Positions 24,804-27,389 of a stretch of DNA of 40,782 bases are shown one piece after another (within the stretch, counting starts at the first letter, position 1; every line of letters begins with the position of its first letter). The DNA lies in contig JAMCVZ010000011.1 in the NCBI GenBank assembly GCA_023476565.1, forward strand, positions 1 through 40,782, given 5' to 3'. The stretch comes from Nitrospirota bacterium (lineage in GTDB: Bacteria > Nitrospirota > Thermodesulfovibrionia > Thermodesulfovibrionales > Dissulfurispiraceae). Under the pieces are notes generated by a model, which saw nothing but the letters and a program-made list of their open reading frames with translations, was not told where the DNA came from and did not search any database. The position numbers and the translations under genes were made by a program.

Positions 24804-25139
24804 TTACTTTGCCTTTACGGCAGTCCCTGCGGTCTCTTTAGCTTCTACAGGAGCAGTAGCAGCCTCAACGATATAGCCGAATACTGTCCCGACTATCGAG
24901 CCTACTACAATGCTCACCGATGCTATGCAGACTATCCCGAGCATGATTCCGGCTGCCACTATCATCCTCACTATAACAGTAGGCTCTACAGGCCCGCCCA
25001 TGAGGTGCCTGATTACTACCAAGGAACCGTAACTGCCGAAGTAAAAGCCGGGGATAAGGCCGAAAATCAGGAATGCTATTCCGCCTAATGTCGCTCCTAT
25101 CTTTGTTCCCATCCTTACCATCTCTTTTCTTGCTTTCAT
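24804..25139 (-). CDS. Small membrane protein, paralog A
   Basis: The 111-aa protein has two or three hydrophobic helices with many Gly residues (GATLGGIAFLIFGLIPGFYFG, IMLGIVCIASVSIVVGSIVGT) and an Ala/Lys/Thr-rich tail. It aligns along its length with the gene at 25206-25532: same start MK.R.EM..., the same GL.PG..FG segment, the same R.IV...M.LGI. I do not recognise a named family. AAAGGAGG precedes the ATG. It is the second gene in the operon. Confidence 0.75.
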   Translation of the reverse strand: MKARKEMVRMGTKIGATLGGIAFLIFGLIPGFYFGSYGSLVVIRHLMGGPVEPTVIVRMIVAAGIMLGIVCIASVSIVVGSIVGTVFGYIVEAATAPVEAKETAGTAVKAK

Positions 25140-25205: not shown

Positions 25206-25532
25206 TTACCTGCTCTTTACTGTTGTGTCTATTCCTACTGTCCGGCTATACCTTACGGCGTCTACAACATACCCTGCCAGCCATCCCAGCAAGGATGCGC
25301 CGACCACAAATATCACTCCCGAAACAATGATCCCCAGCACCATTGACGCCCCGACGATAAGCCTCGGCAATAATGATACGTTTAACGGCAATCCGAATAT
25401 ACTGCCGGCAATGTTCAGCCCTATTACGCCACCTATGAATGAGCCCGGAAGCAATCCGATTATTGCAAACATCACAAGCCCTGCACCTGCCCCGAGGTAT
25501 AATCCCCTTTTTGCCATCTCTCTTGTTTTCAT
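25206..25532 (-). CDS. Small membrane protein, paralog B
   Basis: The 108-aa protein has the same layout as its neighbour: MKTREMAKRGLYLGAGAG, then IIGLLPGSFIGGVIGLNIAG, RLIVGASMVLGIIVSGVIF and LLGWLAGYVVDAVRYS. The two are clear tandem duplicates. GGAGG stands in front of the ATG. A sigma-54-like promoter and enhancer-type dyads lie upstream, so the pair may be induced by a specific signal. Function is unknown. Confidence 0.75.
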   Translation of the reverse strand: MKTREMAKRGLYLGAGAGLVMFAIIGLLPGSFIGGVIGLNIAGSIFGLPLNVSLLPRLIVGASMVLGIIVSGVIFVVGASLLGWLAGYVVDAVRYSRTVGIDTTVKSR

Positions 25533-25676: not shown

Positions 25677-25780
25677 GGATGGCGGCTTATCAGGGGGATG
25701 GATAAAAGGGGAAGCCCTATTTTCCCGGGCGCCTGCTACGGTTAATTTCGACTGCCCTCTTTAAAAACAACCCGGCATAA

Positions 25781-25810
25781 AAAAGGGATTTGCCTGTGCA
25801 AATCCCTTTT
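25781..25810 (-). terminator. Terminator of the ribosomal operon
   Basis: Perfect 13-bp arms AAAAGGGATTTGC/GCAAATCCCTTTT with loop CTGT. On the minus strand a T-run (TTTTTTAT) follows. It is the first strong terminator after rplQ and the short membrane ORF. Confidence 0.85.
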
Positions 25811-25849
25811 CAAAACCTCTATAGCCTGATGCTCTTACTTACACTTTTT

Positions 25850-25866
25850 GGAGTTCTCCGAACCCC
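25850..25866 (-). promoter_or_regulatory. Hairpin with bacterial SECIS-like geometry
   Basis: On the minus strand a 7-bp stem GGGGTTC/GAACTCC (one G-U pair) encloses a GGA loop. The loop lies 23 nt after the UGA at 25885-25883. Bacterial SECIS elements usually have a small apical loop with an early G, at about this distance from the UGA. An alternative pairing ACCCC/GGGGT partly overlaps. Function is inference only. Confidence 0.4.
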
Positions 25867-25882
25867 TTTGAGTAGGGGTCGC

Positions 25883-25972
25883 TCAGGTGCGGACACCGAG
25901 CTTCGGGAATACGATAAACTGCAAGACCACCCAAACTATGATTATGAGCCCGCCGAAAAGTATGTCGTTCAC
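25883..25972 (-). CDS. Translationally coupled one-helix membrane ORF after rplQ; candidate small selenoprotein
   Basis: The GTG start at 25972 overlaps the rplQ stop by GTGA, with GAGG 10 nt upstream. The 29-residue product starts VNDILFGGLIIIVW, is a single membrane helix and then reads FPKLGVRT before UGA. The frame stays open past the UGA for 15 codons (ATPTQRGSENSKKCK) to a TAA at 25837-25835. A hairpin (25850-25866) follows the UGA. If UGA encodes selenocysteine, the protein would be 45 aa. I have a vague memory of small membrane proteins with a 'PKLGV.T-U/C' end, but cannot confirm it. UGA as a plain stop is equally possible. Confidence 0.6.
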   Translation of the reverse strand: MNDILFGGLIIIVWVVLQFIVFPKLGVRT

Positions 25973-26390: not shown

Positions 26391-27389
26391 TTAGAGCACT
26401 GCCTTAAGTTCGTTCATATCTATTTTCATGCCGAAACCCAATCCCATTGAGGTAAGTATGTCCTTTATCTCGTTCAGGGATTTGCGGCCGAAGTTCTTCG
26501 TTTTGAGCATCTCATGCTCCGACCTCTGCACGAGGTCTGCAATGGTCTTTATATTCGCATTCTTCAGGCAATTATACGCCCTGACGGACAATTCCAGCTC
26601 ATCTATGCTCTTCAGCAGGTTTTCATTCAGCGTCGGACTGGCCGAAATCGTACCGGCAGAGCGGGGCGCCTCTTCAGAAATCCCCTGTTCCTCTACGAAT
26701 ATAAACAAATCGAGATGATCCATGATGATGGATGCGGCATCGCTTACCGCTTTCTCGGGTGTTATGCCGCCGTCCGTCCAGATCTCCATCACGAGCCTGT
26801 CATAGTCTGTCGATCTGCCGACCCTCGCCTTCTCAACCCAGAAATTAACCTTTTTTACAGGGCTGAAGACGGAGTCTACTGCGATCACATCGACAGGCAG
26901 CCCTTCTTCTTTGTTCTCCTCGGCTGCTATGTAACCCTTTCCCCTCTGCACATACATTTCCATCTCGAAGGTAGAGCCGCTGTCAACAGAGGCGATGTAA
27001 TGGTCTTTGTTAAGCACCTCGACACCGGGATCAGCCTCTACGTCGGCTCCCGTTACAACCTTCGGCCCTTTTACTTTTACGGTGGCCGTCTTCTTGCTGT
27101 CACTGTGCAGTTTAAATCTCAGCTTCTTTACGTTCAGTACGATATCGACAACATCTTCCTTTACGGCCTTTATATCTGAAAATTCGTGTAAGACACCCGG
27201 TATTTTTATCCCGGTAACTGCAGCGCCCTCGATGGAAGAGAGTAAAACCCTGCGTAAGGAATTGCCGATGGTCACACCGAAACCGCGCTCAAGCGGCTCC
27301 ACTACCAGCTTACCGTAAGAATCCGTAAGGGTCTCTTCATCAAAATTCATTTTCTTGGGCAACTGAAAGCCCCTTTTGACAAGATCCAT
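26391..27389 (-). CDS. rpoA: DNA-directed RNA polymerase alpha subunit
   Basis: Alpha is the scaffold for RNA polymerase assembly. The 332-aa protein has the N-terminal domain (EPLERGFGVTIGNSLRRVLLSSIEGAAVTGIKI, with the dimer and beta contact region). After a linker, the C-terminal helix-hairpin domain (SIDELELSVRAYNCLKNANIKTIADLV..., LNEIKDILTSMGLGFGMKI) contacts UP elements and activators. It lies between rpsD and rplQ. The 93-bp gap to rpsD shows no word hairpin that I could pair. Confidence 0.98.
   Translation of the reverse strand: MDLVKRGFQLPKKMNFDEETLTDSYGKLVVEPLERGFGVTIGNSLRRVLLSSIEGAAVTGIKIPGVLHEFSDIKAVKEDVVDIVLNVKKLRFKLHSDSKKTATVKVKGPKVVTGADVEADPGVEVLNKDHYIASVDSGSTFEMEMYVQRGKGYIAAEENKEEGLPVDVIAVDSVFSPVKKVNFWVEKARVGRSTDYDRLVMEIWTDGGITPEKAVSDAASIIMDHLDLFIFVEEQGISEEAPRSAGTISASPTLNENLLKSIDELELSVRAYNCLKNANIKTIADLVQRSEHEMLKTKNFGRKSLNEIKDILTSMGLGFGMKIDMNELKAVL

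Follow-up and report, generated by a model that had tools for sequence, protein, structure and literature searches.

A reading frame interrupted by UGA downstream of rplQ

The window analysed here, a stretch of 40,782 nucleotides of Nitrospirota DNA, contains a short open reading frame (ORF) directly behind rplQ that runs into a UGA and then continues in frame to a UAA. This raises the question of whether the UGA ends a small membrane peptide or is read as selenocysteine (Sec). The initial annotation had proposed a possible selenoprotein, and comparative genomics now supports that reading through an invariant UGA, a constrained tail behind it, a downstream hairpin, the Sec machinery and Cys-containing homologs. 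We consider it very probable (about 0.9) that the ORF encodes a single-pass membrane microprotein in which UGA is decoded as Sec and which most likely has a membrane-anchored selenol/thiol redox role.

The ORF occupies positions 25835..25972 of the minus strand and encodes 45 residues including Sec30, with a GTG start and a TAA stop. It reads (M)NDILFGGLIIIVWVVLQFIVFPKLGVRT-UGA(25885-25883)-ATPTQRGSENSKKCK-TAA(25837-25835), with the UGA as codon 30 and 15 codons between it and the TAA. Its GTG (25972-25970) shares bases with the TGA stop of rplQ (25971-25969), giving GTGA, and a GAGGG lies at 25986-25982, 9 nt 5' of the GTG. The rplQ gene itself (ribosomal protein L17; 25969..26367, minus strand) was identified by Pfam (PF01196, E 4.6e-35), as was rpoA (26391..27389, minus strand), which is located upstream of the ORF in the same operon. 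Downstream of the ORF is a probable intrinsic terminator (25779..25810, minus strand), an inverted repeat whose 13-bp stem is perfect (arms 25781-25793 and 25798-25810), with a 4-nt loop and T at its end; it was absent from the output of a separate terminator pattern scan. Thus, the start overlapping the rplQ stop with a ribosome site in front of it, the frame open for 15 codons past the UGA, and the terminator placed only after the second stop were all as the initial annotation had described them, and so was the hairpin with a GGA loop 23 nt beyond the UGA (GGGGTTC-GGA-GAACTCC, 25866-25850). Two further small ORFs without a Pfam match are found downstream on the same strand (25206-25532 and 24804-25139).

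Distribution of the ORF

We searched for rplQ in 60 related genomes and read the DNA 3' of it in 30 of them. The same ORF followed rplQ in 22 of these 30 relatives, in 17 of the 22 with the one-base overlap with the rplQ stop that is seen in the window. All 22 ORFs have a (F/L)xxxG(V/I)xT-like motif before the UGA and similar tails after it, for example GVPT-U-AVPQKGSGNSKKCK. A profile built from the 22 sequences was then used to search the relatives and the phylum. It matched an ORF in 50 of the 60 relatives, 49 of the matches having a single in-frame TGA; the 50th, a short match, also proved to have UGA on reading. According to the coordinates, rplQ adjoins the ORF in 46 of the 50, while the remaining ORFs are placed after tpiA-secG (three relatives) or elsewhere (one). 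The tpiA-secG placement occurs in one sister family and is again 3' of a conserved housekeeping gene. Across the phylum, 106 of 396 genomes gave a profile match; two matches (G190 and G396) were rejected as unrelated proteins scoring below 19 bits. On this evidence the ORF belongs to a widespread family of predicted tiny bacterial selenoproteins.

Coding constraint across the inner UGA

The inner codon (25883..25885, minus strand) is UGA in 76 of 76 distinct homologs, and UAA or UAG was found there in none of them. At the end of the frame the stops vary (31 TAA, 27 TGA and 17 TAG), and 68 of the 76 have a Cys in the tail. From 129 pairs of related sequences, which are phylogenetically non-independent, we obtained a pN/pS of 0.31 before the UGA (head) and 0.53 after it (tail), with 0.39 in the part of the tail beyond the hairpin, versus 0.96 in the same frame past the second stop. 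These values imply that protein-type constraint crosses the UGA and ceases at the second stop.

A SECIS-like hairpin downstream of the UGA

In the bacterial SECIS (bSECIS) model, a loop of 3-9 nt has a G in its first two positions and lies 16-37 nt from the UGA, and bSECISearch adds a rule of SECIS minimum free energy (MFE) at or below -7.5 kcal/mol (PMC13188914). The hairpin of the window, GGGGUUC-GGA-GAACUCC (25850..25866, minus strand), fits the spacing and loop rules, with one extra codon before the hairpin. Of the 76 homologs, 73 have a stem of 4 bp or more whose loop carries G in its first two positions, nearly always at 16-23 nt; loops are GGG, GGA or C-GTG-T at the same spacing, and recurrent stems include GGAGCC/GGCTCC, AGGAGA/TCTCCT, GGAAGTC/GACTTCC and AAAGGGAA/TTCCCTTT.

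The mean hairpin score was 13.0, versus 6.6 +/- 0.34 after synonymous-codon randomisation (500 trials, maximum 7.6). When the hairpins were anchored, pairs 2-6 were canonical in 279 of 290 cells, versus 177 +/- 7.5 when arms were shuffled among sequences. With the offset fixed at 20 nt, canonical pairing held for 76% of pairs 2-6 and all five formed in 50% of sequences, versus at most 10.5% at any other fixed offset. The hairpin therefore covaries and far exceeds its synonymous-codon controls.

Thermodynamically, the predicted hairpins are weak, and their loops and spacing agree with the bSECIS rules. As perfect stems scored alone with bulges excluded, the free energy was -7.0 kcal/mol in the window and had a median of -5.2 kcal/mol in the 73 homologs, nine of which passed the -7.5 kcal/mol rule. 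A competing hairpin, ACCCCU/AGGGGU (25862..25879, minus strand), overlaps the SECIS-like stem in the window, and the MFE fold favours it (-8.8 kcal/mol) over the GGA hairpin. An Rfam search returned sub-threshold matches only.

Selenocysteine machinery

SelA and selB scored over the cut-off in 56 of the 60 relatives each, and tRNA-Sec was found in all ten relatives tested, one of the same genus among them (65-74 bits; anticodon TCA by ARAGORN). This same-genus genome (G001) has intact selA and selB together with tRNA-Sec. Another relative (G008) has neither the ORF nor selA or selB over the cut-off.

The window's own genome has an intact selA (614 bits). Within a run of ten C, a single additional base splits its selB gene into two frames (G000:C47:55036-56881); both halves are well conserved, and the same-genus copy is intact. 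A run of this kind is a classic place for assembly error. We did not find selC in the 96%-complete draft, either with the covariance model or by a DNA search with the same-genus selC. As tRNA-Ser(TGA) is close to selC in two relatives, the own contigs adjoining tRNA-Ser(TGA) were also searched for selC, which was not found there. Matches to RF01852 at 47 bits in this genome were assigned by ARAGORN to tRNA-Ser and rejected as tRNA-Sec. Copies of tRNA-Ser(TGA) stand at two contig ends (the end of C37 and the start of C70); they may be a single locus or have been duplicated by an integrated element. It is most likely that the frameshift in selB and the missing selC reflect an error and a gap in the draft assembly, and Sec decoding is likely to be current in the exact organism of the window.

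Cysteine forms and gene neighbours

Homologs with Cys in place of Sec were identified in four deltaproteobacterial metagenome-assembled genomes (MAGs; LGIPT-C-MSGAC) and in one Verrucomicrobiota MAG (together L168-L172), as well as in L188 and L190. The scan of named genomes that sought Cys homologs used a pattern that demanded Cys and is uninformative on the Sec/Cys ratio. The selA gene is absent from the four deltaproteobacterial genomes and present in the Verrucomicrobiota one. Within a second phylum, that of one of the Cys-form MAGs, 26 UGA forms and three Cys forms were read; here the loop is often GGUC and the stems are G+C-rich, so that the predicted hairpin element is conserved across phyla though its sequence differs.

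The Cys-form gene of the four deltaproteobacterial MAGs is located between a thioredoxin gene and a gene for a DsbD transmembrane (CcdA-like)/thioredoxin-domain protein, with Pfam matches as the basis in L168 and, for thioredoxin, also in L171. L168 has an extra small Cys-bearing ORF between the thioredoxin gene and that of the small Cys membrane protein. In the second phylum, a DUF302 gene lies 3' of one UGA form (L176) and a thioredoxin gene 5' of another (L180), and the Cys form L190 is fused to DUF302 (Pfam). L188 resembles this fusion by sequence, and the piece of it that was tested gave no Pfam match. The tail pattern seen in Sec forms is missing from L187, L188 and L190. An ECF sigma factor gene is found upstream of the UGA ORF in L178 (Pfam), genes that resemble one by eye occupy this place in L176 and L197, and a rhodanese gene is found 3' of the UGA ORF in L197.

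The initial annotation had pointed to the sel genes and to homologs with UGA or Cys as the places to look, and to homologs ending here in UAA or UAG with no conserved downstream frame as evidence to the contrary. Both kinds of homolog exist, four of those with Cys being in genomes without selA; the inner codon is always UGA among the 76 and the tail frame is constrained. As to the machinery, selA, selB and tRNA-Sec are present in relatives, and the own draft has an intact selA and a frameshifted selB; selC was not found in it.

Alternative readings of the UGA

If the UGA were a true stop, the product would be a 29-residue one-helix peptide and the conserved sequence downstream would be an RNA element only. 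The constraint on the upstream peptide itself and the conserved hairpin behind it are both compatible with this, but 0 of 76 homologs have UAA or UAG, protein-type constraint goes on past the hairpin up to the second stop and is then lost, and Cys codons occur in place of UGA with the frame continuing; we thus regard a true stop as very improbable. Scarcely credible, too, is readthrough of the UGA without selenium, by a near-cognate tRNA or through reassignment of UGA in the lineage. UGA is not reassigned, because it terminates rplQ and many of these ORFs. Against selenium-free readthrough of any kind, UGA gives way to Cys, four times in genomes that have no selA; the hairpin agrees with the bSECIS model in loop and spacing; and every relative tested has tRNA-Sec, even if the own draft, with its frameshifted selB and no selC found, would suit such a reading.

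The same state of the draft could also mean that the family consists of selenoproteins but that the species of the window no longer decodes Sec, or is in the course of losing this ability, and makes the truncated peptide only, for which the stronger competing hairpin and the extra codon before the SECIS-like one would also speak. This appears improbable to us given the intact selA, the conserved halves of selB with a single extra base in the 10-C run, a tail that keeps KKCK, and the intact selA, selB and tRNA-Sec of the same genus. A different kind of alternative accepts the selenoprotein and gives it a role in structure or regulation, linked to the ribosomal operon, instead of a redox one. 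Adjacency to rplQ in 46 of 50 matches among relatives argues for it, whereas the ORFs placed after tpiA-secG or elsewhere, the several examples outside the phylum next to thioredoxin, DsbD/CcdA or DUF302 genes, and the conservation of Sec/Cys, which implies chalcogen chemistry, argue against it; we consider such a role unlikely, while giving it some weight.

Membrane topology and proposed function

For the preferred reading, a membrane-anchored selenoprotein, AlphaFold2 predicted one helix (residues 2-24; 25901..25969, minus strand), which is a single candidate transmembrane helix, with pLDDT 88 over residues 1-20 and a disordered tail. The N-terminus has a net charge of -0.9 and the C-terminus of +3.6, and this charge bias predicts, by the positive-inside rule, that the tail is cytoplasmic. 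The spacings from Sec to the tail Cys are U-x4-C, U-x7-C and U-x12/13-C, outside the UxxC/CxxU motif class. Because the spacing varies, a specific reaction is without the support of a fixed UxxC motif. The U...Cys tail and the gene neighbours point most readily to a membrane-tethered selenol/thiol redox role.

We propose that termination-reinitiation at the rplQ stop may start translation, in which case the microprotein would be made together with the ribosomal/rpoA operon. SelB and Sec-tRNA would then decode the internal UGA at the short SECIS hairpin; from the UGA down to the loop the distance is 23 nt here and mostly 16-23 nt in relatives. In the product, an inner-membrane helix would lead into LGVxT-Sec and a short tail, flexible and basic, with a Cys near its end. 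Sec and the tail Cys would most likely alternate between the selenol/thiol and the selenenylsulfide state, and the protein, anchored in the membrane, may give electrons or sulfur/selenium to thioredoxin-type partners or accept them. On balance, we favour the broader view that these single-span membrane selenopeptides, most of which have 43-50 residues in the window's phylum, make up a widespread class that had not been listed before and is among the smallest selenoproteins known. With one Sec and one tail Cys on the cytoplasmic face of the inner membrane, they would act together with thioredoxin, CcdA/DsbD-type or DUF302 partners as a minimal redox relay, and in many species they are coupled to the ribosomal operon.

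Relationship to known selenoproteins

Neither the Sec nor the Cys forms matched any model of Pfam or NCBIfam (June 2026) over its curated cut-off. These searches gave weak transmembrane-type matches only, of which the Pfam matches DMT_YdcZ and Arabinose_trans were set aside because they reflect no more than a general likeness among membrane proteins. The family resembles bacterial SECIS/SelB-decoded selenoproteins in its in-frame UGA, its G-bearing apical loop within 16-37 nt, its Cys homologs and the SelA/SelB/tRNA-Sec of its relatives (PMC13188914). In the 2026 inventory of 119 families, nothing fits by name or motif, the sole bases of comparison (PMC13188914); the family is set apart by its length of 44-45 residues, its lone membrane helix and its LGVxT-Sec motif. 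A 2022 review and deep-Sep likewise held no fitting family by name or motif, and literature searches, with preprints and most subscription papers outside their scope, returned no description of it. KCU-star, selenobacteriocin and SaoC, which the inventory names, are also Sec-containing bacterial families, presumably of small proteins, but their listed motifs are CU or SGUG instead of LGVxT-U, and NCBIfam, which has models for families of these types, gave no meaningful match. The Sec-to-Cys spacing of 4, 7 or 12-13 also sets the family apart from selenoproteins with UxxC or CxxU motifs.

The analysis adds a selenoprotein family without a model in the libraries tested. Its ORF, being short, is hidden next to rplQ, and common prediction thresholds may miss a SECIS as weak as this one. 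The finding suggests that a whole size class of membrane-anchored selenoproteins below 60 residues has been overlooked. Such proteins would also offer a minimal system for asking what selenium gains over sulfur at the membrane. Eukaryotic SELENOK and SELENOS share the membrane anchor and a Sec in a flexible C-terminal region, although we claim no homology, and one report includes the proposal that SelS forms a selenosulfide with a nearby Cys (PMC3628699). These eukaryotic proteins are larger (189 aa in SelS) and have their SECIS in the 3'UTR.
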